This document shows positions 22,553 to 54,074 of a DNA stretch of 54,662 bases, one piece after another. The translations under genes were made by a program, and so were the position numbers. How positions within the stretch are numbered: the first letter of the stretch is position 1; every line of letters starts with the position of its first letter. A model generated the notes under the pieces. It was not told where the DNA came from and did no database searches. It was given only the letters and a program-made list of their open reading frames with translations. Source of the DNA: Methanoregula sp. (GTDB lineage Archaea; Halobacteriota; Methanomicrobia; Methanomicrobiales; Methanospirillaceae); NCBI GenBank assembly GCA_026394605.1, contig JAPKXY010000027.1:1-54662 (forward strand). The letters are read 5' to 3'.

Positions 22553-23590
22553 TTAAATAAAGAACCGGAACGTCACCCAGGCGATAATGACCATCAGTGC
22601 AGAATATTTGAATCCGGCAAGCGCCCTGCCCTCACCCATCTGTCCTGCCATGAGCCCTGAGAAGAATCCCTGAAGTATCGCCGCATGGGAGAAGAGGCGT
22701 TTGTATGAGGGAATATCGATACTGCCGATGAACTGGGTTCCGGCACCGGATGACGAGGCGGCAGCACCGGCAGTGGCCATCGTGGTAAGGAACGTGCTCA
22801 CGAGGATGGCAATGACAAAAAGGAACACCGCAAACGAGACAAGCACGATAACCATGTAGATCAGCATGTTGTTGCGCCGTTCCTGTGCCAGGTTCACCAC
22901 TTCGAATGTGTCGGCTGCCGCCGCACGCAGCACCTCGCTGACATCCCCCCCGGCCTTGCTTGCTTTTGCAATGAGGTCAACACTGCGGTCGGCAAGCGTG
23001 GTGCCAAGACTGCTGCCAAAATGAAAGAGCCCTTCGACAAAACCCACACCCCACGACATCTCGTTGTCCAGTTTGCGGATATGGGGGGTTAATGTTCCGT
23101 ACTCTGCACCAGCAACGAGATGTACGGCATTGGGGAGCGTCATACCGCTGTCATTCATGCCGGCAACATCGCGGAAGAAGTTGGGCAGTGCTTCCTCAAG
23201 AAACCTCACGCGGCGCTCTTCCATGAAGTCCAGAACTGCAAGCGGGATAATGGAGAGCAGGACCGCAAAGATCGCAAAGTCGTCGATCACGGTTGAATCA
23301 AAGAGCACCGAAATGCCATGGACCTGAACCATGGAAATAAAACCCCCCAAAAAGACAATGATCGAGAGGGGAATGCAGAGAATCAGGATGTTGATCGGTT
23401 TTTCAGTCAGCACCTGGACCGGGTGTTTGAAAAACCTCCCCATCCCTTCACGGCTTTTGCGTTCAATATCGAGCTTCTGGGTGATCTCATGAACCTCGTT
23501 TTCAGCCCTGATCAGATCACCCGCGGGAATCTTTTTTTGTTTGAACCCCCCCCTGTTGAAGAGGTTGTTAACGATGTCCTTGGCTGCCAT
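22553..23590 (-). CDS. Type II secretion F/TadC-type membrane protein
   Basis: A 345-residue protein of the T2SS-F/TadC/ArlJ superfamily, the polytopic platform of type IV pilus-like machines. Hydrophobic segments lie at about residues 65-90, 105-125, 245-275 and 320-345, and the cytosolic T2SF domain around residues 125-240 contains FRDVAGMNDSGMTLPNAV. A KKIPAGDLIRAE N-terminal helix precedes them. It forms a pair with the similar gene directly upstream (1-base gap), as TadB and TadC do. Substrate pilins are not nearby. Confidence 0.88.
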   Translation of the reverse strand: MAAKDIVNNLFNRGGFKQKKIPAGDLIRAENEVHEITQKLDIERKSREGMGRFFKHPVQVLTEKPINILILCIPLSIIVFLGGFISMVQVHGISVLFDSTVIDDFAIFAVLLSIIPLAVLDFMEERRVRFLEEALPNFFRDVAGMNDSGMTLPNAVHLVAGAEYGTLTPHIRKLDNEMSWGVGFVEGLFHFGSSLGTTLADRSVDLIAKASKAGGDVSEVLRAAAADTFEVVNLAQERRNNMLIYMVIVLVSFAVFLFVIAILVSTFLTTMATAGAAASSSGAGTQFIGSIDIPSYKRLFSHAAILQGFFSGLMAGQMGEGRALAGFKYSALMVIIAWVTFRFFI

Positions 23591-23591
23591 A

Positions 23592-24515
23592 TCATGTCTC
23601 CGGTGTCATTGAACTGATCATGATCACAAACAGCACGCTGCCAAACGGGATCATCAGGTAGGTGATGATGTAGAGCAGGAGCGGGTTCTTCTCACCTGAG
23701 AGTACTGACATGATCGATTGCAGGATGATCAAAAACAGTGTGCCGGCGACCATCGCGGTGACATAGGACTCTGCAATCAGTCCGAGAGTATCTAAAAACA
23801 TCTTCTGCGTCTGGCGGTTCTCAAGTGCGTACTGGTTTGCCTTTGTCCTGAAGTATTCGGTGAGGTTGCCACCCGCCGAGATGCTGGCCATGGCGCCCTG
23901 TAAAAATTCCTTCATCCGTGCGCTCGGGGTGCTTGCAGAAACAAAACGGAGTGAATCGACAAGATCCCTCCCAAAGATATCGATCTCCCGGGCGATATAC
24001 CGTGCCTCAACTGAACATTCGCCATAGATCGGACTGTCCCCAAGCAGGCGGAAGACCTCAGCCGGTGTGATGCCGGCAGTGGACATAGATGTGATGTAGT
24101 TAATCGCATAGGGCAGTGTTGCATCGATGCTGCGCCGACGGTTACCCGCAAGGATGTTCGGGTAGATCAGGAAGGCGATATAGGTGAACCCCCCGAAAAA
24201 GAGAAGCGAGAAGAGGACTGCAAAAATCGTGCCAAGGATGAGGCTGTACTGCGAAAGTCCGGTGATCGCCTCGGGAACATTCCCCCGATAGGTTATCAGG
24301 TTCGGGATTTTGAGCAGGTACGTAACGGCACCAAGCAGGACAGCCATGCCCAGACCAACGATGACCGAACTGATCAGGGCGGTCGAGATGAAGACTTCAA
24401 AGGGTGTCTTTGACCGGGCAGAGATGAGATCGTTGCGCAGCTGATGATACTGATCCCGTTGTGCTTTCATCCGCTTGCCAAGAAGATTGAAGCAGAACCG
24501 TTCGTAACTATTCAT
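23592..24515 (-). CDS. Type II secretion F/TadB-type membrane protein
   Basis: A 307-residue membrane protein of the same superfamily as the next gene. It has hydrophobic stretches near residues 45-70, 90-120, 245-270 and 280-300 and a central cytosolic helical domain with YITSMSTAGITPAEVFRLLG. Such proteins transmit ATPase motion to the pilus base. Its start overlaps the end of the ATPase gene by 8 bases, so the three are translated together. Divergence from its partner suggests a heteromeric platform rather than a recent duplication. Confidence 0.88.
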   Translation of the reverse strand: MNSYERFCFNLLGKRMKAQRDQYHQLRNDLISARSKTPFEVFISTALISSVIVGLGMAVLLGAVTYLLKIPNLITYRGNVPEAITGLSQYSLILGTIFAVLFSLLFFGGFTYIAFLIYPNILAGNRRRSIDATLPYAINYITSMSTAGITPAEVFRLLGDSPIYGECSVEARYIAREIDIFGRDLVDSLRFVSASTPSARMKEFLQGAMASISAGGNLTEYFRTKANQYALENRQTQKMFLDTLGLIAESYVTAMVAGTLFLIILQSIMSVLSGEKNPLLLYIITYLMIPFGSVLFVIMISSMTPET

Positions 24516-26934
24516 AGAGGTCTTTCCTCACCTTTTCAATGACCGCCTCGGGATCGCGGTGGTACGAGATCAGGATCTTTGATACGTCCTTATAATGCCG
24601 GATCTTCTTGATCCGCATCCACTCGAGCACTTCCTGCCGGCGTTTCAGCTCTTCCCGCATCCGGTTGTCACTCCACCCTTTCGCCTCCATTATCTCTTCG
24701 AGAATATAGGATTTCCCCGAGTAGCTGATCTCGTCGGTGGCTGACCGCCATTTGAAGACCTCGTTGGTGATCAGTTCGTTCGTTCTCGGGTCGATATCCA
24801 GAATCTCAATAATCTGCTTGTTCCGCCTGATACGTTTCCCGCCGACCCGTGCCTGTATCTGGATACAGATAAAATCGAGCGCGGAGAGCATGTTGCGCGG
24901 CACGTCCATCGGGGGGTTCTCGATACGGTGAACGACACTTGAGACGGAGTCGGCGTGAATGGTCGAGTAGGTCACGTGACCGGTACTCATCGCCTGGAAG
25001 AGTGTCTGGCATTCCTTGCCACGGACCTCACCCACGATGATGTACTCAGGACGCTGACGCATCGCAGCACGCAGCAGTTCATACATATTGATTTCGCCCC
25101 TTCCTGCAGCATCGAATGAATCACGGGTAACGCTGGGGATCCAGTTGGGGTGCGGGAGCTTCACTTCGCGGGTATCTTCAAGGCTGACGATTTTTGCCAT
25201 CGGTGGAATGAAAAGCGAGATCGCATTTAAGGCTGTTGTCTTTCCTGATGCGGTTCCACCTGCAAAGATCGCGGACTTGCCGCTCTCAACAGCGAGCCAG
25301 ATATACGCGATCGAGAGCGGGGCAAAGGTATGCCATTCGATAAGATCCGTGGGAGTTATCGGTTCGTCCTTGAATTTACGGATAGTGAAGGTGGAACCGT
25401 GAGCGGTAACCTCCTGGCCAAGCGTCATCTGGATACGGGAACCATCACTCATCGACGCATCAAGGATCGGCTCCGCGATGGAGATGTACTTGCCTGCCCG
25501 CTGGGCGAGCTTGGTAACAAACGAGTCAAGTTCTTCGGCACTATGGTAGGAGAGCGTGGTCTTCATCGATTCGTAGCTTGCATGGTACGCAAAGATCAGG
25601 CTGTTGACACCATCACAGGAGATATCTTCGATGTACTTGTCGTGCATGATCGAATCGATCATACCATCTCCGAGAAAATCCTTATACATGTTGTACAGGA
25701 TCTTTTCACGCTGGATTGGCGATAACTTGAGCCCATAATCATGCATGATGTTGTCTGCAGCCGTACGGAGCCTGATCCGTGCCTCCTCTTTGGAAATATC
25801 TTTGGTGTTGATATCAAGGGTCTCGAACAGGCGCTCCTTGAGCTCCTTTAACAGGTCCTTTTCCGGCTCGGTGAGGACGGGTTCGAGGACCTGGTAGGTA
25901 TATTCATGCGTGGCATGGTCATAGATGATGCGGACATAGGCATAGGGTTCGTTAACCGGATAGATTTCTATCTCCTCGAGACCGGGTTTTGGCTGGAAGG
26001 TGATGTCGAGAAGCGGACCATGGATCTTGGGGTTGTATTCTTCAACTTCCGCCCGGATTGCCTTGAACAGGTTTGCTAGACCGAACCTTTGAAGAGGCGC
26101 GGCCCGCGCTTTCTTCTCCTTGATGATATCAGTCTCTAGGTCAAGGTCCTTGAAGCCGGCAGTCAGGAATTCACGCTGCCAGATCTCATTAATCTCCGGC
26201 GGAAGTGTACCGGTACCCTTGCCCTCGAATATATTGACGCGGCTGTGGAGCTTGATCTCCTCCACCATGAAAGTTGCTCCCTTCGGGAGAACCAGATCCG
26301 AAAGATCGGTGAGCTGGTCCACGGAGATGATCTTTTCATCCGCTTCGGACGGGGCAACCGCAGCGGGGGTTGCTGCCAATCGCACCGCTTTTACAGCGGG
26401 TTTATCGGGTGGCTGGAGCACAGGGGATTGCAGTTCGGGAGCTTGTTCAGCATCATCATAAATATCGAACTGAGCCGGGGGAGATGGCAACGGTTTTTCA
26501 ACGGAAGCAGGCTCCTTTGCACCCATTTCCGCCATGATCTTTCCAAGCGATTCGCGAACGTCATGAGCATTCAGCTGCTGTGTTCCTTCCGCAGGAGATA
26601 CTCTTTTTATCAGGCCGGATGGAGGGATGCTCTCTTTAATAATGGCATCTGCCGGAATTCGGGCGGGGGATATGATATCAGGCCGGGTTGCAGTCACTGG
26701 TTTGACAGGTTGCGGTGGTGAGTCGGGAGGGGCAATGGGCTCTTGTGGTTTTCCTGCCCCGAGCTTTTTGATCAGGGCGCTCAAATCTCCGGCATCTGAA
26801 TCACCCGTTTTTATTATTTGTTCTACGGGCTTTGCCGGTTCTTGCGTTTTCTCCGGATCCCTGGGTTTTTTTAAGGCATCAAGGATTTTCATCAAAGAAG
26901 TATCTTCTGATTCTGGATCATCAAGGTCTGTCAA
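24508..26934 (-). CDS. Type IV pilus/Tad-type secretion ATPase with long disordered N-terminus
   Basis: An 808-residue GspE/TadA/ArlI-superfamily ATPase. Residues about 1-210 are Pro/Ala/Glu-rich and look unstructured. The N-domain follows, then the motor with Walker A GGTASGKTTALNAI (about residue 560), the Asp box SLEDTREVKLPHPNW, Walker B-like EYIIVGEVRGKE and the His box MSTGHVTYSTIHAD. All catalytic elements are intact. The start reads TTG at 26934 with a G-run upstream; ATG 26892 is an alternative. ArlI and TadA are usually 450-550 residues, so the N-terminal arm is unusually long. Confidence 0.92.
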   Translation of the reverse strand: MTDLDDPESEDTSLMKILDALKKPRDPEKTQEPAKPVEQIIKTGDSDAGDLSALIKKLGAGKPQEPIAPPDSPPQPVKPVTATRPDIISPARIPADAIIKESIPPSGLIKRVSPAEGTQQLNAHDVRESLGKIMAEMGAKEPASVEKPLPSPPAQFDIYDDAEQAPELQSPVLQPPDKPAVKAVRLAATPAAVAPSEADEKIISVDQLTDLSDLVLPKGATFMVEEIKLHSRVNIFEGKGTGTLPPEINEIWQREFLTAGFKDLDLETDIIKEKKARAAPLQRFGLANLFKAIRAEVEEYNPKIHGPLLDITFQPKPGLEEIEIYPVNEPYAYVRIIYDHATHEYTYQVLEPVLTEPEKDLLKELKERLFETLDINTKDISKEEARIRLRTAADNIMHDYGLKLSPIQREKILYNMYKDFLGDGMIDSIMHDKYIEDISCDGVNSLIFAYHASYESMKTTLSYHSAEELDSFVTKLAQRAGKYISIAEPILDASMSDGSRIQMTLGQEVTAHGSTFTIRKFKDEPITPTDLIEWHTFAPLSIAYIWLAVESGKSAIFAGGTASGKTTALNAISLFIPPMAKIVSLEDTREVKLPHPNWIPSVTRDSFDAAGRGEINMYELLRAAMRQRPEYIIVGEVRGKECQTLFQAMSTGHVTYSTIHADSVSSVVHRIENPPMDVPRNMLSALDFICIQIQARVGGKRIRRNKQIIEILDIDPRTNELITNEVFKWRSATDEISYSGKSYILEEIMEAKGWSDNRMREELKRRQEVLEWMRIKKIRHYKDVSKILISYHRDPEAVIEKVRKDLYE

Positions 26935-27085
26935 GCAGGACCCCCCTTCACGTCTGATAAACGATTGTATGAAATGCTTAAATGATACATTACCATCTTA
27001 GTATATCTACTCTCTGGACGCTGGTCCATGCAGGGTTGTGTATTCATTGGTGTTTCCTCTGCACTATCATATACTATACATAATG

Positions 27086-27787
27086 TCAGGTTTCCTTCTG
27101 CAGGTCTGACTGGAGATTCATGATTGCCAGCCGCAGAAGTCCGAGCTGGGCATCATTCTGGGTGAACACGCATAAAAACAGGTCACCGCAGGGTGCGATG
27201 ATGATTTTGTTGGTAGCGGTCTCAAGTATGAGCTCTTCGAGGTTTCCGATCTCCATCTCACGCGTGATCTTTATGCCAGCCCGCAGCAGGTCTTCAGCAA
27301 GAGCTGCAACGTGTTCGAAATCCGCATCACCTATTGACTGGACACTGAATCCTTCAAAGAAGGCTGATATTGCAACAACCCCCGGGAGAGTGAGGATCTT
27401 TTTGAGTTTTGTTTCATCCATGAGGTTGGGGAGCTGCGCAATCGATCCCTTTTTCTGTTCAGACAACACCAGCTCTTCGTCCTCAGAGATCACAACCGCC
27501 CTCTGGAACTCGTCGTCGTTGTAGGCACGGAGCGAGAACGTCTGCCGGAAACCGGTATCGTCTGGTTGTACCTCACCCATATGGTCAAGGGCAGCCTTTC
27601 CCCTGAACGATCCGCTCAAATCCTTAAAAAAGGCAGCTACCAGGGTGCCGCGGTTCGTGAGGATGAACCCGTGTCCTGTCTGGGTATCGATCTCGATCGC
27701 CCCACGGAACCCTATCAGCTGCTGGATAGCGCCATCTTCCTGCGGGTTCGTGATGACACCTGCGTCCGTGCCTGCTGGAAGATCCAT
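27086..27787 (-). CDS. Two-domain protein: PATAN-like region plus roadblock/LC7 domain
   Basis: A 233-residue protein. Residues about 15-95 (QQLIGFRGAIEIDTQTGHGFI, LTNRGTLVAAFF) follow the pattern of small PATAN/DUF4388-like signalling domains (a guess by pattern). Residues about 125-225 are a roadblock/LC7 domain, recognised by LPGVVAISAFFEGFSVQSIG. Roadblock proteins regulate small GTPases or multimerise; bacterial MglB is the best known. It lies 150 bases upstream of the secretion ATPase and 2 bases after the next roadblock gene, so it probably belongs to the same transcription unit. Confidence 0.78.
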   Translation of the reverse strand: MDLPAGTDAGVITNPQEDGAIQQLIGFRGAIEIDTQTGHGFILTNRGTLVAAFFKDLSGSFRGKAALDHMGEVQPDDTGFRQTFSLRAYNDDEFQRAVVISEDEELVLSEQKKGSIAQLPNLMDETKLKKILTLPGVVAISAFFEGFSVQSIGDADFEHVAALAEDLLRAGIKITREMEIGNLEELILETATNKIIIAPCGDLFLCVFTQNDAQLGLLRLAIMNLQSDLQKET

Positions 27788-27789
27788 AG

Positions 27790-28137
27790 TCAGAGGGCTG
27801 CGATAATCCGTTCCTTATTTTTCTTTAATTCGTACCGGATCCTTCCAATATTCGACGAGCTGTCTGCCACAATGGCGATCAGCTCATCTGCAGAGAGTGG
27901 TGAGAGAATAATCGGTCCCTTCTCGAGCTCAACGAGCATCTGGGAAAGTTCGCCCTTGCCAAGGGTGGTGCCCATCGCCTCTGATGTGCCAAGACCCGTT
28001 GACGCCATGGCACCGAGGGCTTCGATATCAACCTTCCCTGAAACTGCACTCTCGATCACAAACCCGTCACGTCCAACCACGACAGCTGCTGATACTCCCT
28101 CCACTTTTAAAAATTCTTCCAGTAAAGGCTTAAGCAT
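27790..28137 (-). CDS. Roadblock/LC7 domain protein (MglB-like)
   Basis: A 115-residue single roadblock domain protein: LLEEFLKVEGVSAAVVVGRD then GFVIESAV, a central helix and a C-terminal helix ending KNKERIIAAL. The segment DELIAIVADSSSNIGRIRYEL is the conserved last strand and helix. Related proteins act as GTPase-activating dimers for MglA-type GTPases, but no GTPase gene lies in this window. It is the first gene of the minus-strand unit leading into the Tad-like machine. Divergent from the plus-strand gene at 28351, with A/T-rich promoter DNA between. Confidence 0.86.
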   Translation of the reverse strand: MLKPLLEEFLKVEGVSAAVVVGRDGFVIESAVSGKVDIEALGAMASTGLGTSEAMGTTLGKGELSQMLVELEKGPIILSPLSADELIAIVADSSSNIGRIRYELKKNKERIIAAL

Positions 28138-28317
28138 CTTGTCACCACTTCCCTGACGTATTGTTCTCGTCCCGTTCTATTAAAACTTTAGGCTTAATTT
28201 TTTAAAAATATCTCTTGTTTTGCTTTGGAATACAAAAAAATTCATAATCCTCATGTACCCTGCTGATCCTGTCTAACAGCCATGAAACCATTGCGTTTCC
28301 CCTCGGGCACCAATAAG

Positions 28318-28325
28318 ATTTAAAC
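28318..28325 (+). promoter_or_regulatory. Candidate TATA box before the 28351 gene
   Basis: ATTTAAAC lies 26 bases upstream of the ATG at 28351, the right distance for a leaderless or very short-leader archaeal transcript. The preceding AATAAG is purine-rich, as expected for TFB recognition. The 210-base gap also holds a TTTTTAAAAAATTAAG tract on the other strand near 28195-28215 that could drive the roadblock gene. Confidence 0.5.
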
Positions 28326-28350
28326 CCGAAACGGTGATAATTAAAATACC

Positions 28351-29031
28351 ATGGATCTGCCCCGCGGCACATTTCGCTCCTTACAAAAGGGTGAACAACT
28401 GAGAGATATTCTCAACAAGATTGTAAAAACGCGGTTCTCCGGCATCTGCACCTTCTCATCAGGCAACACGATGAACGGGACGCTGGTGTTTAACAGCGGT
28501 ATCTGCATCCTTGCCAATATCCAGAATCAATACGGCGCAGCGGCATGGGACGGGGTACAGGCACTCCTGGATCAGGTTTTTGATATTGCATTGTCCGATT
28601 TTGACAGCACCCAGCTGCAGCTCGCACTCGACTTCAATAAAAAAGCCCATGTGCAAAAAGGGGGCAACCGACGGGGAGCAGTACCGCAGAAAGCAAACGG
28701 AGCGGATCATTTGAAGGAACAGAAACAGCACGGCGCACTGACCAGGCACAGGACCGGGGAACATGATTTCACACAAACAACACATGTCACCTTCGGTCAA
28801 TCGGGACCTGATACTCCCGCAGAACAAAAAACCCCTGTCCCCCATCAGGCGGAAAAGAAAGAGCCGTTTCCTGAGGGTCGGTCAGCTCCTGCACCCGATG
28901 GGGCGTCCAGCGCTGAAAAGGATTTTGATACCTTTGACTCCATGGATCTTGACGACGTAGCGCAGAAGATCCGCAAGGACTGCAAGATCATTTTAAAACA
29001 GCTCCAGCTCGACCACCTGACGGAAAAATAA
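28351..29031 (+). CDS. PATAN/DUF4388-like N-terminal domain protein with charged C-terminal arm
   Basis: A 226-residue protein. Residues about 1-105 show the strand pattern FSGICTFSSGNTMNGTLVFN then SGICILANIQNQ, which resembles PATAN/DUF4388-type domains and the N-terminal half of the gene at 27086. The middle (about 105-195) is rich in Lys, Gln, Pro and His and looks disordered. The last 30 residues (MDLDDVAQKIRKDCKIILKQL) form a helix. The family is not certain. It heads a plus-strand pair with the membrane-anchored roadblock gene, separated by 18 bases. Confidence 0.68.
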   Translation: MDLPRGTFRSLQKGEQLRDILNKIVKTRFSGICTFSSGNTMNGTLVFNSGICILANIQNQYGAAAWDGVQALLDQVFDIALSDFDSTQLQLALDFNKKAHVQKGGNRRGAVPQKANGADHLKEQKQHGALTRHRTGEHDFTQTTHVTFGQSGPDTPAEQKTPVPHQAEKKEPFPEGRSAPAPDGASSAEKDFDTFDSMDLDDVAQKIRKDCKIILKQLQLDHLTEK

Positions 29032-29049
29032 TTTTAAGGAGGGTTTTTT

Positions 29050-29643
29050 ATCGAACTCAACCTTCTTGGCTTCGCGGATGTCACCACTGTTGCGATCATC
29101 TGCTTCATCATTGCACTCATTATCATCATCGCATGGTACCAGACAAAAAAAATTTTACAAAAGCGTGAGCAGATTGCCAGGGAACCTCCCCCCGACGATA
29201 TCTTCAAGCTTGTATCGAGAATGAAATATCCCGCCAGGGAAGCAGAAAAAACCAGGCAATCCGGAGAATTTTCACCTGCCGTTTCAAAATCAGGACCTGA
29301 AAAGAGCCCCAAACCGGTCGACCTCTTACAAAACCGAAAGGATATTACCTCAAGCCTCCAGGCCCTTGCCGAAAAGTATTCACTCGCCGAGATCACGCTT
29401 GCTACCGACGATGGTCTGGTCCTTGCATCATCCGCAGGGCATGATGTACAGGGAGATGCTGCACACTACAGCCAGATCATCAAACGCCAGTCGGCACCCG
29501 ATGACCCCGAGGTCTCCCTCTTTGAACTGAAACACCGGGATGCGGGCGTTATCGGCATCATCAGGATGAGCACCAACCTGCCCCAGAACTGGAAAAAAGG
29601 GATCAGGGAAGATACAAAAGTTATTTTACAGTGGTGGTTATAA
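29050..29643 (+). CDS. Membrane-anchored roadblock-like protein with apparent ATC start
   Basis: If translation begins at ATC 29050, the product has 197 residues: ELNLLGFADVTTVAIICFI, a membrane helix (about 13-29), a charged linker, and a roadblock-like domain from about residue 98 (LAEKYSLAEITLATDDGLVLASS) to the end. The first ATG/GTG/TTG in frame is ATG 29221 (140 residues), which would remove the membrane helix. An AAGGAGGG ribosome-binding sequence (29036-29043) sits 6 bases before the ATC, and the frame has a TAA at 29035. Both facts favour initiation at the ATC codon; a sequencing error or mutation of an ATG is the alternative. Confidence 0.7.
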   Translation: MELNLLGFADVTTVAIICFIIALIIIIAWYQTKKILQKREQIAREPPPDDIFKLVSRMKYPAREAEKTRQSGEFSPAVSKSGPEKSPKPVDLLQNRKDITSSLQALAEKYSLAEITLATDDGLVLASSAGHDVQGDAAHYSQIIKRQSAPDDPEVSLFELKHRDAGVIGIIRMSTNLPQNWKKGIREDTKVILQWWL

Positions 29644-29671
29644 CAGAATTATAAGGATAAATTGATTAATC

Positions 29672-29680
29672 TTATATAAA
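29672..29680 (+). promoter_or_regulatory. Candidate TATA box for the MinD-like gene
   Basis: TTATATAAA sits 36 bases before the ATG at 29716 in a 72-base A/T-rich gap. Transcription would begin near 29704, giving a leader of about a dozen bases that includes AGGTG at 29707-29711. This suggests the MinD-like gene can be transcribed separately from the roadblock gene upstream. Confidence 0.55.
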
Positions 29681-29715
29681 TTTACCAGAAATTCATTGAA
29701 GATAACAGGTGCTGA

Positions 29716-30501
29716 ATGGTCAAGGTTTATACAATCGCTTCCGGTAAAGGGGGGACCGGGAAGACCACCGTTGCAGTCAATCTCGGAACGATGCTCTCGC
29801 AACTGGGAAAAGAGACCTTCCTCATGGACGCAGATATCGGCATGGCGAACGTGGGACTCATCCTTGGCCTCCAGGATGCACCGGTCACCCTCCATGAAAT
29901 CCTTGCCGGCAAGGGCACGCTTGACGAGGCAGTCTACGAGGGCCCGGCTGGCCTGAAAGTCGTCCCGAGCGGACTATCGCTCCAGGGGTTCCAGCAGGCA
30001 GACCCCGAACGGATCCGGGATGTGATGGGCGAGATTATCAAACGGTGCGAGTTTTTGTTAATCGACGCTCCTGCTGGAATCAGCAAGGACGGGGTCGTTC
30101 CGCTTGCCGTCGCTGACGAAGTGATCCTGGTCGTAAACCCCGAGTTGTCCTCGATCGTCGATGCCCTCAAGACCAAGATCCTGACGGAAGTGGTTGGCGG
30201 GCAGGTGCTGGGCACGATTATTAACCGGGTGGATCAGGACAAGGTTGATGTCATCACCAAGAAGATGGAGAAAGTGCTCGGCGTGAAAGTGCTCGGGATC
30301 ATACCGGAAGACCCCAATGTCCGCAGAGCATCAGCGGCAAAGACGCCGATCGTTATCAAATACCCGTCATCGCCTGCGACGCAGGCATTCAAGCGGATCG
30401 CATCCGACCTTGTGGGGGTTGCCTACAAGGAGGAGAAAGGAGCGGTGCAGAGAGAGGGGTTCATCGACCGGTTCTCAAAAGCCCTGTTCAAGAGAAAATA
30501 A
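29716..30501 (+). CDS. minD: MinD/ParA-family ATPase
   Basis: A 261-residue deviant-Walker ATPase of the MinD/FlhG group. The P-loop SGKGGTGKTTVAVNLG has the signature lysine K11 and K16, followed by the switch MDADIGMANVGLIL and the DAPAGISKD element. The C-terminal helix FIDRFSKALFKRK is amphipathic and basic, like the membrane-targeting sequence of MinD. In halophilic archaea a MinD homologue (MinD4) positions archaella and chemoreceptor arrays. Sited beside roadblock and pilus genes, a polar positioning role is plausible (inference), rather than cell-division site choice. Confidence 0.93.
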   Translation: MVKVYTIASGKGGTGKTTVAVNLGTMLSQLGKETFLMDADIGMANVGLILGLQDAPVTLHEILAGKGTLDEAVYEGPAGLKVVPSGLSLQGFQQADPERIRDVMGEIIKRCEFLLIDAPAGISKDGVVPLAVADEVILVVNPELSSIVDALKTKILTEVVGGQVLGTIINRVDQDKVDVITKKMEKVLGVKVLGIIPEDPNVRRASAAKTPIVIKYPSSPATQAFKRIASDLVGVAYKEEKGAVQREGFIDRFSKALFKRK

Positions 30502-30645
30502 TATTTTTTCCATTTTTAACATAGTAACTTTTTAAAAATACCGTTCAATCGAATCAATGTTTTTTGTACAGTTTCTGATTGGGTGTTATTGTAAATTCCA
30601 GATTATGCATAAAAAATATTGTAAAAACCGGTCTATTCCGCTTTT

Positions 30646-31764
30646 TTATGGTTTGTTGGTGATGGCAAAAACACAGTGTTCATCACCCTTTGACCGGCAC
30701 TTGATCTCGCGACCCTGAACTTTGATCCCAAAAGCGCCCTCAACGATCCCCGCGAGGAGCCCGGCAGTACAGAAGCAGACGTTCTTTCCGGTGGTGCCGA
30801 ACGCTTCCGATTCAACCGTGTGTTCGAGCGTGATCGTCTTTGTCTTTGCCGCTTCATTCCACTCCATTTTGATGATCCTGAACCACCCCATCTGGGAGTA
30901 GAAGGCAAACGCCATATCGGCAAGGATGTTGGGGGTCGTGATGCCCATCTTCTTGTAGTGCTCAACATTTTCCTTGCCCATATCCATATACGCCCGGTAA
31001 TTTACACCGCCCGCAGGTATCTCCCCCATCGTCTTTTTTAACGATCCCATCATCGATGTAAAGATGAAGCGCGGCATCATGACGACCGGATCATCGATCA
31101 GCTTGATCCTGCCTTCAAGCGGCTTGTGCTCGATATATTCAGTGATGGCAGAGTCACCTTTCACGATTGCCACTGCCTTCCACTTCCAGCTGGATTCAGT
31201 CTGATCGGCAACAAACTCACAGCAGTCATCACCGTTTGCATGGCATCTGGTCTCAAGACAGAACCAGTTTTTACCGGTGATGGCGAAAAGCACACCCTCA
31301 ATCCAGCCCCGATGGATACCACAGACCGGCATCTTCCAGTCCTTCATGACCTGGGATTCAAAGGTCTGTCTGGTACGGAGCAGGATCTTTTTATCACTCT
31401 GCTCAACAAGCTCAAACGGGGCACCCCAGCCCTGCTGGTGCTGCAGCTTGAATACAAGCATGAGGAATTCTGCGGGTTTTAAGTCCATTCCCAATTTCTT
31501 TAACAGGTTCTGGAAACCGACAGAACCCATACCAACTGATCGGAAGAGCTTGCGCACCTCCTGTACGGCAAGCTTCCTGTCCAGGTTGGCTTCATACATT
31601 TCATAAATGGCTTTTATAAGGTAATTCGGGTTGCTCGCAGTCCTTACGCCGAACACCGAATAGGTACCTGCAGCAGGATCGAGGTCGATATAAGGGGTGA
31701 TATCCTTTTCACCCTTGAGTAAGGCTTCAAAATCCTCGCGCCCGATCGTTTTCTTCTTCTCCAT
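30646..31764 (-). CDS. Protein with two V4R domains
   Basis: A 372-residue protein carrying two copies of the V4R domain, a small-molecule-binding module. The first (about residues 135-190) has GIHRGWIEGVLFAITG then CLETRCHANGDDCCEF, and the second (about 315-372) has LLAGIVEGAFGIKV then CRSKGDEHCVF. The cysteines suggest a metal or heme-type ligand. The N-terminal 90 residues are helical with LRRSVGMGSVGFQN-like features. V4R proteins occur next to regulators and methanogen signalling genes. The ligand is unknown. It is convergent with minD. Confidence 0.88.
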   Translation of the reverse strand: MEKKKTIGREDFEALLKGEKDITPYIDLDPAAGTYSVFGVRTASNPNYLIKAIYEMYEANLDRKLAVQEVRKLFRSVGMGSVGFQNLLKKLGMDLKPAEFLMLVFKLQHQQGWGAPFELVEQSDKKILLRTRQTFESQVMKDWKMPVCGIHRGWIEGVLFAITGKNWFCLETRCHANGDDCCEFVADQTESSWKWKAVAIVKGDSAITEYIEHKPLEGRIKLIDDPVVMMPRFIFTSMMGSLKKTMGEIPAGGVNYRAYMDMGKENVEHYKKMGITTPNILADMAFAFYSQMGWFRIIKMEWNEAAKTKTITLEHTVESEAFGTTGKNVCFCTAGLLAGIVEGAFGIKVQGREIKCRSKGDEHCVFAITNKP

Positions 31765-31867
31765 GGGGCATAGCTCTGCAGTCTATTTACTAAAGTATTT
31801 CGTCTTGCGGTTTTCTGATACTACCAGAATGCGATTAAAAACAAGATGGCAGATTTTTTTTTAAATT

Positions 31868-32479
31868 TCACATCACCAGCGGGATGAATGTGTGCGATGC
31901 ATCGAACTCGATCCGGTATTTTGTGACCACCTGCGCCTTATCCTGAACGATGCAGTCATAGACCCCATACGCGACACGGAACCCGACAGTACCATCATTG
32001 GTGGTGACGTCGCTTCCCACAATCTTTCCATCTTTCCTGATCGAGACGCGGATGCCGTTCTGCGGGACTCCTTCCTTTTTCACTATGATGGAAAGGATAC
32101 CGATACCCCCGGACGGCCCCCCGATCTCAGGAACTACGCAGGAGATCGTCTTTTTCAGCCGGTTCTTATCAAAGATCCGGCACCCCATCACAAGCGCTTC
32201 GACAACATCAAGCGTGGTCTCAGTGAGGACAAAGCTCTCCTTTACCTGGATCATCAGGACCGCTGTATCACCGAACAACACTCCCTTCCCGTCAACATAG
32301 ATAGCACCCTCCGCCTCTCCTGCAACGAACGCAATATAGAATTCCCTGCCATCACCTTTTGCCACCGCGACACCGTTGATTTCCCGCGAAGAGGCGAACT
32401 GCAGGAGATCTGATAAGTCAAACGTCCCGAGATATCGCGACCCTTTCAGGACATTATCCAGCAGTTCATGGATCTTCAT
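31868..32479 (-). CDS. PATAN/DUF4388-like protein with beta-rich C-terminal domain
   Basis: A 203-residue protein. Residues about 1-95 (GTFDLSDLLQFASSREINGV, GREFYIAFVAGEAEGAIYVD) match the DUF4388/PATAN strand order by pattern, similar to the genes at 28351 and 27086. The C-terminal 80 residues (LSIIVKKEGVPQNGIRVSI then DGKIVGSDVTTNDGTVGFRV) look like an immunoglobulin-like or carboxypeptidase-regulatory-like beta sandwich. Start ATG 32479 is chosen; ATG 32494 adds five residues. It faces the divergent prepilin peptidase gene across a 207-base gap. Confidence 0.68.
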   Translation of the reverse strand: MKIHELLDNVLKGSRYLGTFDLSDLLQFASSREINGVAVAKGDGREFYIAFVAGEAEGAIYVDGKGVLFGDTAVLMIQVKESFVLTETTLDVVEALVMGCRIFDKNRLKKTISCVVPEIGGPSGGIGILSIIVKKEGVPQNGIRVSIRKDGKIVGSDVTTNDGTVGFRVAYGVYDCIVQDKAQVVTKYRIEFDASHTFIPLVM

Positions 32480-32686
32480 GGTACGGCATCCCATTGAATG
32501 AGCGATCGGTGGAACAATGAAAGAACGCACATTCCTTGATCGGAATATTCGACCCTGACATAATATTAATGTGTGGATGTGGTGCAGGTACCTATTCTCT
32601 CCACTCACCATGATACCATATGACCGGGTGCGAGCACGGGCATCGCCAACCATAAGTGGTACTGAAAACAACGATAGAATGAGGAT

Positions 32687-33490
32687 ATGTTCGCTGATCA
32701 GGTCCAGACACCGATGATCATATCAGCTGTGGCCGTGCTTGTCACCCTGCTCTACGCATCGGTCCTGGACATCAGGGATCGCAGGGTTCCCTTCAGGACA
32801 TGGTACCCGATGCTTGCCGTGGGGATACCAGCGGCTGCGTGGTTCTACGTATCAATCGGGCTTTCCGGCAGGTGGGGACTCGTCGCGGGCTACATCGCCC
32901 TGAGCATCATCTTTTCCCTGATGTTTTACCTGTTTGCAGCAAAGAACCTGTTCGGCGGGGCGGATGCCTGGGCGCTGATCTTTTGCGCTGCTTGCATCCC
33001 GTTTTTCCCTGTCACCCCGCTCTTTGGTTATCCCCCGCTCGGGTTCCTGCCCTTTACCGTACTCACCAACGCCGTGTTCCTGAATCTTATCGTCCCCGTT
33101 GGCATCTTTGTGATGAACGTGGCAAAAAAAAACCGTGCACCGGTCCCATACATGTTCTTCGGGTTTCCAGTCGATGGCGCAAGTATTCAGAAGACATTCG
33201 GGTTTGTGATGGAGGATATGGAGGAAAAAGAAGGGGTTCTTATCAGAAGGTTTGTGGGCATGCGCGAGTCGTTGCGGCGGATGGTTTCAGGTGAGGGGCG
33301 GATCTATACCAAAGACCTTCGTCTCCACCCGGAACAATTCAAAAAAGAGCTGGCGCTCTACAAACAAGCAGGAACTGTCTGGATCTCATATGCGGTGCCA
33401 TTCATCATCCCGATCACCGCAGGTCTGATCAGCGCGATTGTGCTGGGGGATTTCCTCTTTTTAATCATGAAAGCCGTCATGGGTGTCTGA
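32687..33490 (+). CDS. A24-family prepilin (preflagellin) peptidase
   Basis: A 267-residue polytopic membrane aspartic protease that cleaves type III signal peptides of pilins and archaellins. The first catalytic aspartate lies in [10 protein letters not shown] (D28 or D31) and the second in GGADAW (D93), close to the GxGD motif. There are six to seven hydrophobic segments. A long cytosolic loop (about residues 150-235) is a feature of the archaeal branch. Being close to the Tad-like machine suggests that it processes its pilins, but no pilin gene is recognisable in the window. Confidence 0.9.
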
Positions 33491-51933: not shown

Positions 51934-52563
51934 TTAGAGATTACTGGTGAACAAGTCGTTGATCTCTTTCAACCGCGCCTCACTCGATGCAATTTTCTCT
52001 TCGAGTTTTGCGATGTCAGCGCGATCGGTCTCATTCACCTCTTTGCCCTTAATTACCATGCCGCTTGATGCCCGAAGGACATTAACCAGGTTTCTATCGA
52101 CATCGATGGTTTTCCGCAGCGATGAGTATTCCTCGAGAATCTTTGGGTCTAATCCCGCGTCCTTGGCTAGGAGCACCTCCATTGCCACATCTTTACGCCG
52201 TTCAAAGATCTGCTCGATTGATTCGAGGAGCTGCGCGGGGTTCACGGGTTTTGAGACAAAGTCATCTATGCTCATGCTGTGCTCCTGCGCCTCAGAAGGC
52301 GTGATCTTTTTTGCGGAGAACATGAGCACCGGGATCTCCTTTGTGACGGTGTTCTTTTTGATATTCTCGAGCGTCTCCCAGCCATCCATCGGTTCCATCA
52401 TGATATCTAAAAGGATGAGATCGGGCTTTGTTGTCCCAAGAAGGCAAAGGCACTCATCTCCACCGTGGGCGGCAATTGGCTGGTAACCCTTGCGTTTGAG
52501 CAGCGCCACGAGCCCGTCGACAATATAAGGGCTGTCATCCACGATCATGATGGTATTATTCAT
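51934..52563 (-). CDS. Response regulator with helical C-terminal arm
   Basis: A 209-residue protein. Residues 1-125 are a receiver domain with acidic pocket D9/D10, phospho-acceptor D53 in ILLDIMMEPMDGWETL and lysine K105 in FVSKPVNP. The remaining 80 residues are helical (AKDAGLDPKILEEYSSLRKTID, then AKLEEKIASSEARLKEINDLF), resembling a coiled coil and not a DNA-binding domain. It is closely similar to the next gene along the whole length, which suggests duplication. A histidine kinase is not in the window. It probably signals by protein contact. Confidence 0.92.
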   Translation of the reverse strand: MNNTIMIVDDSPYIVDGLVALLKRKGYQPIAAHGGDECLCLLGTTKPDLILLDIMMEPMDGWETLENIKKNTVTKEIPVLMFSAKKITPSEAQEHSMSIDDFVSKPVNPAQLLESIEQIFERRKDVAMEVLLAKDAGLDPKILEEYSSLRKTIDVDRNLVNVLRASSGMVIKGKEVNETDRADIAKLEEKIASSEARLKEINDLFTSNL

Positions 52564-52694
52564 ATGCGTTCACCTCAGGTGAGAGAGGGGTGCTGGAGTG
52601 CACGGGCAGAACACGTACACATTTCCACACCATGTAACCGCCGCATGAAGTTCCACTAAACGGTGTCCTCTTATTATCTGCCGCTGCGACAATT

Positions 52695-53339
52695 TCAACC
52701 TGTTGCATCCTTGGAGAGGGTACCCGAGAGCTCATCCTTGATCTGCTGGAGCCGTCCCTCTTGGAACTTGATATTGGTTTCCATGCTCTTGATCGCACGG
52801 GAGATATCCTCAGAAACTCGCATCTTTACATCATTGATATTGTATGTCGTTTCGAGGATCTTCAATAACCGTTTGTTGACATCGATGCTTTTACTAAGCC
52901 GTGCATATTCGCTGATCACCTGTGCGTCAAATCCAGACTGGCGGGCGATGTCAACATCAGATTTGATCGCCTGCCGCCGGTTGAGCACGTGCTCGATTGC
53001 GTCATACAGCTCCCGGTGGGTGATGGGCTTTAACACGTAGTCCTCAATATAGATCCCGTACTCCTGCGCTTCGACAGGGGTGAGCTGTTTTGCTGTGAGC
53101 ATAAGCACCGGAATCTCCTTTGTTGACAGGTTCTCCTTGATGCGTTCCAGCGTCTCCCAGCCATCCATCGGCTCCATCATGATATCTAAAAGAATGAGAT
53201 CGGGCGTGACAGTCTTAAGAATTTCAAGGCACTCTTCCCCACCGTATGCGGCAACCGTGCGATACCCGCCACGCTCAAGCATGGTGACAAAAACATCGAC
53301 AATGAACGGGCTGTCATCGACAACCATAATCGTATACAT
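52695..53339 (-). CDS. Response regulator with helical C-terminal arm, paralogue
   Basis: A 214-residue receiver protein beginning MYTIMVVDDSPFIVDVFV, with phospho-acceptor D52 in LILLDIMMEPMDGWETL and lysine in VLKPITH. The helical arm contains SEYARLSKSIDVNKRLLKI and KSMETNIKFQEGRLQQIKDEL. The ATG at 53339 shares TGATG with the roadblock stop; a GTG codon precedes it. Homology to the gene at 51934 covers both the receiver and the arm. The arm of this type is shared by both paralogues and is therefore functional. A 131-base gap separates it from the second gene. Confidence 0.92.
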   Translation of the reverse strand: MYTIMVVDDSPFIVDVFVTMLERGGYRTVAAYGGEECLEILKTVTPDLILLDIMMEPMDGWETLERIKENLSTKEIPVLMLTAKQLTPVEAQEYGIYIEDYVLKPITHRELYDAIEHVLNRRQAIKSDVDIARQSGFDAQVISEYARLSKSIDVNKRLLKILETTYNINDVKMRVSEDISRAIKSMETNIKFQEGRLQQIKDELSGTLSKDATG

Positions 53340-53698
53340 CACATCACTTCCCCTATCTTTTGAGCAATTGATAGAATCTGGTCATGGGCTTTTCCCTGAT
53401 CTGCCCGGTTGTCAAGAATCGCAGCAACGAGAAAATTGTCGCCGGCACCCATCACCATGATGGAAGAGTCGAAACCGCGAATCGTCACCGAGTCCATGGA
53501 ATGCATCCTGATGATATTTGCCGCAGATTCCGCAGACGCAAGGATGGTTGCCGTGAGTGCGCCAAACCACGGTTCATTCAGTTCACGTTCAAAGGATTTT
53601 CCCGCGACAATGCCGTCCCGGGATACGACAGCACATGCAGCCACACCATCGACCGATCGGATTTTATCGATAAAACCGGAAATTTTGTCCTTTAACAT
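53339..53698 (-). CDS. Roadblock/LC7 domain protein in a response-regulator operon
   Basis: A 119-residue roadblock/LC7 protein: FIDKIRSVDGVAACAVVSRDG, IVAGKSFERE, then a helix with ATILASAESAANIIRMH and the strand MDSVTIRGFDSSIMVMGAG. It precedes two receiver genes with a start/stop overlap (TGATG). ATG 53698 is chosen over 53713. This ties roadblock proteins to two-component signalling in this genome. A TATATAAGG element about 55-60 bases upstream on the minus strand probably drives the operon. Confidence 0.86.
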   Translation of the reverse strand: MLKDKISGFIDKIRSVDGVAACAVVSRDGIVAGKSFERELNEPWFGALTATILASAESAANIIRMHSMDSVTIRGFDSSIMVMGAGDNFLVAAILDNRADQGKAHDQILSIAQKIGEVM

Positions 53699-54074
53699 GG
53701 TATCCGCACCCAATAAACCAACCTTGGGTAATTCATAATACCTATGGGTTCCTTATATACATATCTTTTTTATTTGTGCCGTGATTTTCGGGTTGTTGGT
53801 AAAGTTATCACAAATGAGGGTAGTCCTGATCCGGTGACCTTTATCGTTCTTGTAGGCCCATATTATTCTGTGAATTTTTTTTTAGAAGAATACTTAAAAA
53901 TCCCTTTTTTTAACAAGGCAGTTCTCGTTCATATCATTTGAGGGAACGAATTGAATAGCATTATATATAATTCAACCAAGAGATTGTAACGGGTTAGAGC
54001 GGTGGCCGGGGCATCGCGATAGCGTCGTGCAGACATAGTGAAGAGTTCAGGTTCGGGCGGTTGCTGGTGAGACC
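53699..54074. other. A/T-rich intergenic region with two promoters and a GC-rich leader
   Basis: This 376-base stretch separates two divergent genes. Near 53751-53760 a TATATAAGG element on the minus strand suits the roadblock operon. The middle is A/T-rich, with one 65-codon frame (53744-53941) that is not protein-like. A TATA-like TTATATATAA at 53961-53970 faces the plus strand. From about 53990 to 54070 the sequence becomes GC-rich and can fold, with GCATCGCG/CGTCGTGC-type pairing near 54012-54032. This section would be the leader of the next gene, or a small RNA. Confidence 0.5.
53961..53970 (+). promoter_or_regulatory. Candidate TATA box upstream of 54075 gene
   Basis: TTATATATAA lies about 105-114 bases before ATG 54075 in A/T-rich DNA. 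Transcription should begin near 53992-53997, where the composition changes to GC-rich, so a leader of about 80 bases is expected. Such a long leader is unusual for an archaeal gene. Confidence 0.5.

Follow-up and report, generated by a model that had tools for sequence, protein, structure and literature searches.

The Roadblock/LC7 protein and the receiver-MetOD2 (REC-MetOD2) response regulator encoded by one operon of the window very probably work together, because the two genes stand side by side in all 103 genomes of the order Methanomicrobiales that carry this roadblock type, recur as a pair in two other contexts and, in relatives, adjoin homologs of a second roadblock-containing locus, found at 22.5-33.5 kb of the window. 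The window is the whole stretch of DNA analyzed, 54,662 nt of contig JAPKXY010000027.1 of a Methanoregula sp. The genome carrying it comprises 1.62 Mb in 60 contigs, and in a contig sequence scan the named records closest to it were those of Methanoregula and the MAG HGW-Methanomicrobiales-3. That the roadblock-REC-MetOD2 unit spans the order, recurs elsewhere and is linked to MinD and pilus loci appears to be undescribed: neither a roadblock-MetOD2 operon nor a partner of MetOD2 was found in the literature searched (supplementary tables and subscription papers lay outside its scope).

We tentatively propose, at somewhat less than an even chance, that the operon encodes a phosphorylation-controlled scaffold, in which the helical arm of the regulator would dock on the roadblock protein and the complex would steer an NTPase that places a surface machine. 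This proposal draws on sequence (domains, phosphorylation residues, pairing, recurrence and neighborhood), on the predicted fold of each protein, and on analogy. It bears on how archaeal response regulators without DNA-binding domains deliver their signal. Archaeal roadblock proteins are much debated in relation to eukaryotic scaffold proteins, and the pairing would assign a function to one of them.

The operon lies on the minus strand in the order RB1, RR1, RR2, followed by a tRNA-Lys gene and then by an RNA polymerase operon, whose genes were identified by eye from their translations. Its features are:

53751..53760, minus strand: TATA-like element GTATATAAGG, read by eye
53339..53698, minus strand: RB1, Roadblock/LC7 protein (P0001, 119 aa), first gene of the operon; Pfam Robl_LC7, 4e-9
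53337..53341, minus strand: TGATG stop/start overlap of RB1 and RR1, seen in the sequence, with base 53339 common to TGA and ATG
52695..53339, minus strand: RR1, REC-MetOD2 response regulator (P0002, 214 aa); Response_reg 4.3e-24, MetOD2 1.5e-35
52722..52979, minus strand: MetOD2 arm of RR1; PF18548 and AlphaFold2 helices
51934..52563, minus strand: RR2, REC-MetOD2 paralog (P0003, 209 aa); Response_reg 9.6e-23, MetOD2 4.6e-19
51943..52200, minus strand: MetOD2 arm of RR2; PF18548

A sequence-only reading of this DNA had described a roadblock gene overlapping a first receiver gene in TGATG, with a second receiver gene after it, and the coordinates and strand hold. The TATA-like element lies 52 nt 5' of the RB1 ATG, and is a possible promoter of the operon. 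RB1 matches Robl_LC7 with 36.5 bits (cut-off 23), the two receivers match Response_reg with 85.3 (RR1) and 80.9 (RR2) bits, and their arms match MetOD2 with 121.4 and 68.6 bits, respectively (cut-off 30.6).

Both receivers keep the phospho-acceptor Asp and the Lys, as had been read. The phosphorylation residues are D8/D9/D52/K104 in RR1 and D9/D10/D53/K105 in RR2, with switch residues T82/Y101 and S83/F102, respectively, and D8, D9, D52 and K104 are invariant across 24 sequences. The receiver of a close relative, 76% identical, is available as a solved structure (3c3m). The description of the two receiver proteins as closely similar holds for their paralogy and somewhat overstates their closeness, as RR1 and RR2 are 48% identical overall, with 61% in the receiver and 30% in the arm.

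Profile searches found MetOD2 in 114 of the 150 genomes of the order and in 33 of its 35 genera, so that the arm occurs far beyond the duplication in the window. RB1-type roadblocks, called as matches of 92 bits or more to a profile of RB1 orthologs, are present in 103 of the 150 genomes. All 103 carry MetOD2, and the 36 genomes that lack MetOD2 also lack the RB1 type. In each of the 103 the roadblock gene lies directly upstream of a REC-MetOD2 gene on the same strand, as established for the window itself, for 70 genomes from fetched DNA and for 32 by coordinates. Of the 113 MetOD2 genomes other than the window's, 80 were examined in DNA at their main locus; 69 of these 80 regions have the roadblock directly 5' of REC-MetOD2, and genome G017 has the pair in its locus L135, which brings the count to 70 of 80 genomes. 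The one-base stop/start overlap seen in the window is found in 50 of the 70, another 19 have the two genes within 3 nt, and one has a larger overlap. In the 32 further genomes the two matches share a contig and a strand and are spaced 363-369 nt apart, which equals the receiver length, except for one spacing of 496 nt that involves a partial match. A candidate partner encoded by an overlapping gene and never found without the regulator makes signal delivery by MetOD2 a question of direct binding.

Intact RB1 is absent from 11 of the 114 MetOD2 genomes (six of family f3, in which the REC-MetOD2 gene stays in place without the roadblock, and G109, G113, G121, G131 and G139), and the regulator can therefore act without the roadblock. 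At L067:5968-6870 of G113, a decayed roadblock lies in frame with an intact REC-MetOD2 gene, and the regulator outlives its partner there. This arrangement was considered as a 'Rosetta stone' fusion and rejected, the roadblock being a remnant without its N-terminal part that is in frame with the next gene. In genus g24, which accounts for 24 of the 150 genomes, MetOD2 and both roadblock types are missing and no archaellum ATPase exceeds the cut-off, which makes the genus a candidate for joint loss.

The second roadblock-containing locus of the window includes the following features:

22553-23590 and 23592-24515, minus strand: two T2SSF/TadC membrane proteins; T2SSF 3.5e-14 and 5.8e-15
24508-26934, minus strand: type IV pilus-type ATPase; T2SSE 2.3e-31, PilB3_C 1.1e-6
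27086..27787, minus strand: RB2, third roadblock-type protein; Robl_LC7 2e-8
27790..28137, minus strand: RB_27.8, second roadblock protein, in a conserved context; Robl_LC7 1.9e-16
28351..29031, plus strand: DUF4388/PATAN-like protein (weak assignment), neighbor of the operon in relatives
29221..29643, plus strand: O29.2, small conserved protein between the PATAN-like gene and MinD; no Pfam family
29716..30501, plus strand: MinD-family ATPase; TIGR01969 minD_arch, 318 bits (cut-off 201.75)

The 28351-29031 protein has no Pfam match, and its relatives match DUF4388 at only 0.033-0.066. O29.2 is kept beside MinD in many relatives and, judged by eye, may be roadblock-like. Positions 22553-33490 also hold a prepilin peptidase and a V4R-domain protein, and the locus is conserved in relatives.

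The pairing recurs in a third type of locus. Six of the 20 secondary MetOD2 loci fetched (L122, L126, L127, L129, L131 and L138, from genera g2 and g11) have the order roadblock, second roadblock, REC-MetOD2, with gene ends overlapping or abutting. Their first two genes are homologous to those at 27790-28137 and 27086-27787 of the window, respectively, with 36% and 25% identity in L122. The other recurrence is in another order, where L224:5618-7964 of genome G195 holds an overlapping operon of a membrane histidine kinase (read by eye), a MetOD2-like regulator (MetOD2 sub-threshold, E 7e-4) and a roadblock gene. This operon is one of 29 roadblock places in 5 of the 11 genomes of that order; no receiver was seen alongside the other 28 within the fetched flanks. 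The G195 genome has 13 roadblock matches.

The pair has a divergently oriented MinD homolog on its upstream side in 53 of the 80 regions fetched, spread over 21 of 32 genera, and homologs of the 28351-29031 and 29221-29643 genes lie beside the pair in 30 and 25 of the 80 regions, respectively. In the window itself MinD is about 22 kb from the pair and not adjacent to it, standing beside the type IV pilus engine. RB_27.8 occurs together with RB2 in 20/20 of the second-roadblock loci fetched, many of which have MinD, the ATPase, the two membrane proteins or the prepilin peptidase alongside. Two MinD genes per genome are common in families f2 to f5, and in several f2-f5 genomes fetched for both loci one MinD stands beside each roadblock type, so that two modules of the same plan exist. 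The window's genome keeps a single close MinD. In a MinD tree the operon-adjacent and pilus-locus positions are not cleanly separated, and the window's MinD falls among the module-B copies from its genus group, within a clade otherwise made up mostly of operon-adjacent copies. The adjacency of MinD may in part be synteny inertia, because the RNA polymerase operon downstream is also conserved.

The sequence-only reading had linked the operon to the 22.5-33.5 kb locus, and had suggested that receiver and roadblock proteins work in one pathway. The link is supported by gene order in relatives, where MinD lies beside the pair, and the common pathway by the pairing in 103/103 genomes, the two recurrences and the homologs of the locus that adjoin the pair in relatives. 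The second locus gives that reading less support in the form stated: in the window it holds two roadblock genes, but no receiver was recognized among its main proteins, although some relatives carry a receiver gene in the pilus-type locus. The roadblock family arCOG02603 and FleN/MinD (arCOG00589) have been tied to archaeal type IV pili (Makarova et al. 2016, PMC4858521, in the text available), and the window's locus is of that kind. The word 'Receiver' occurs 0 times in that text, and the RB1-REC-MetOD2 operon is a separate unit.

A MinD match (E ≤ 1e-30) is present in 88 of the 103 genomes with the pair and thus not in every one. The 15 others lack both this match and a Ras-like GTPase; therefore neither MinD nor the GTPase is the sole target. 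Profiles run against MinD, the pilus ATPase, the archaellum ATPase and the Ras-like GTPase revealed no single NTPase that tracks the pair; the pilus ATPase query matched 145 of the 150 genomes and was too broad to discriminate. The archaellum ATPase exceeds its family cut-off in 95 of the 103 pair genomes and, as counted by eye, in 13 of the 15 without MinD and GTPase, and the 24 g24 genomes have neither the pair nor an archaellum ATPase match. These counts would suit a chemotaxis or archaellum switch adaptor, in which REC-MetOD2 joins a kinase to the motor, the roadblock only stabilizes it, and MinD and pili are uninvolved. However, the correlation comes mainly from one clade: outside g24, 12 genomes have an archaellum without the roadblock and 8 show the reverse. 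We consider this explanation unlikely.

The AlphaFold2 model of RB1 shows a clear roadblock fold (pLDDT 93.9). Its best structural match is Asgard Roadblock3 (9jue, Z 19.9, rmsd 1.6, 118 residues), and it also resembles MglB (Z about 18). The latter resemblance would agree with a roadblock that acts as GAP or regulator of an orphan MglA-like small GTPase under the control of REC-MetOD2, in a Myxococcus-like polarity switch. A Ras-like small GTPase of 170 aa is encoded in the same genome (L233:1339-1851), and is found in 85 of the 150 genomes of the order (at least 110 bits). MglA GTPases of 'Group 4', which lack conserved neighbors, occur in methanogens (PMC4316618, in the part of the text available), and the L233 protein is a candidate member of that group. 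Against a GTPase target, the gene does not track the pair, being absent from 33 of the 103 genomes, and its place is on a different contig, next to an elongation-factor-like gene (annotated by eye). Such a switch is accordingly judged quite improbable.

The arm, previously read as having no known function, is by sequence a family that already has a name, Pfam MetOD2 (PF18548), a methanogen output domain without an assigned function; the earlier statement thus holds for the function and not for the family. The family goes back to Galperin et al. 2018 (PMC5847659), who described it in Methanocellales and Methanomicrobiales as four predicted helices, tentatively a divergent helix-turn-helix (HTH), and the available text of that paper mentions no roadblock partner. 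RR1 and RR2 are members by score, with the same REC-MetOD2 architecture and methanogen lineage. Of 392 genomes sampled from the phylum, 77 carry MetOD2, seven of them outside the order; four of the seven pass the cut-off, and three of these four belong to family f14, in which no roadblock lies within 6 kb of MetOD2 (0/3). In a contig scan, the ten best of the 80 loci listed (L139-L148) carry MetOD2 by the arm profile, and the other 70 are mostly bacterial and match in the receiver. A scan of viral contigs returned zero relatives.

The HTH proposal leads to another explanation, that the arm binds DNA or RNA and makes REC-MetOD2 a transcription regulator of the usual kind, perhaps of the adjacent RNA polymerase operon, with the roadblock as passenger or modulator. 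The operon precedes rpo genes in most genera (26 have these neighbors), a position that would fit such a role. The AlphaFold2 model of RR1 (mean pLDDT 88.7, pTM 0.83), a prediction built on 14 sequences, instead shows three long helices at residues 108-134, 139-165 and 177-212 (27, 27 and 36 residues) and no compact HTH. The first of these is the last helix of the receiver running on into the arm, and the model is less certain at residues 161-180 and at the C-terminus. The net charge of the arm is near neutral (median +2, 24 sequences), and a transcription regulator would leave the strict pairing with the roadblock unexplained. We therefore give this explanation a low probability as well.

A sequence search with the arm alone against solved structures gave a best E of 0.033. 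Structure comparison of RR1 is driven by the receiver, so missing arm matches are uninformative as to the novelty of the fold. Foldseek alignments to PorX span about 200 columns, but with an rmsd near 16 Å, and were not read as kinship of the arm.

Frozen synteny next to the RNA polymerase operon, with no common function behind the gene order, is a very improbable explanation: the rpo neighborhood is conserved in 26 genera, yet the fast-evolving roadblock (median distance 1.21 vs 0.26 for the receiver) was never seen apart from the regulator, the start/stop overlap is kept, and the pairing recurs at other loci.

In the phosphorylation-controlled scaffold that we prefer, a histidine kinase encoded elsewhere would phosphorylate the REC-MetOD2 receiver at D52. 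The genome has 13 HATPase_c places, not every one of which need be a kinase, and in relatives REC-MetOD2 paralogs adjoin large PAS-rich sensor-kinase-like genes (L046, L130, L134 and L226). The change in the receiver would be passed to the arm through their shared helix, because the last helix of the receiver runs straight into the arm. The arm would then dock on the roadblock protein translated along with it, which is presumably a homodimer, and the complex may recruit or gate a P-loop NTPase, most often the MinD of the neighboring gene cluster. The NTPase, in turn, would help to place or switch a type IV pilus, an archaellum or a chemosensory array.

RR2 would be a later duplicate that serves as a second input or a competing partner in its group of genera. 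RR2 copies form a single group in the regulator tree, the sole point used from this tree, which has long branches and unsettled bootstrap values; the clade holds g1 and g3 copies and one g7 gene only. Among the regions examined, RR2 is restricted to genera g1 and g3 (the window's genome and 10 others), and the g7 gene is possibly an arm-less relative. Because its arms have diverged, RR2 may have another partner or play a competing role.

Docking of the arm on the roadblock was also approached through evolutionary distances. With RpoB held constant (54 sequences), roadblock distances correlate with those of the arm at r 0.22 and with those of the receiver at 0.15; for the 44 sequences with MinD the values are 0.28 for the arm, 0.21 for the receiver and 0.12 for MinD. 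When the receiver is also held constant, the arm correlation remains at 0.18, with 0 of 500 permutations as high, and the reverse gives 0.05; the effect is small and the permutations do not keep phylogeny. These distances give weak support to an arm-roadblock contact.

A known parallel in design is the RomR-MglC-MglB system of Myxococcus xanthus, which likewise combines a receiver protein bearing a C-terminal helical part with roadblock proteins, and has an NTPase and type IV pili downstream. The C-terminal helix of RomR alone binds the roadblock protein MglC with a KD of 2.6 nM (PMC12719032; PMC10329633, in the parts of the texts available). The RomR helix is acidic and follows a disordered region, whereas the MetOD2 arm is near neutral and follows the receiver directly, without a low-confidence linker. 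The RomR module uses a small GTPase, whereas here the GTPase does not co-occur with the pair (33/103 without it) and the neighboring NTPase is of the MinD type. The likeness lies in architecture and predicted binding, and does not imply kinship of REC-MetOD2 with RomR.

Archaeal ATPases of the FlhG/FleN/MinD group are linked to pili and motility, and the window's MinD matches the archaeal MinD family TIGR01969. Haloferax MinD2 and MinD4 place archaella and chemosensory arrays (PMC11588486); in the available text of that paper a roadblock protein has 0 occurrences, and the window's MinD is not adjacent to the pair. A fuller version of the scaffold proposal, which we regard as doubtful, would be a two-component polarity module, in which the regulator holds a roadblock adaptor on its helical arm and a MinD-type ATPase places pili or archaella, with RomR-like logic, a different arm family and NTPase, and two paralogous modules, one of them tied to pili. 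If this positioning model is true, a polarity pathway switched by phosphorylation, similar in design to that of bacteria, would exist in archaea.

Six further loci (L120, L121, L123, L128, L133 and L136), beside which no roadblock was recognized, encode longer proteins of 418-477 aa with REC-MetOD2 at the end, perhaps the MetOD3-REC-MetOD2 architecture named by Galperin.
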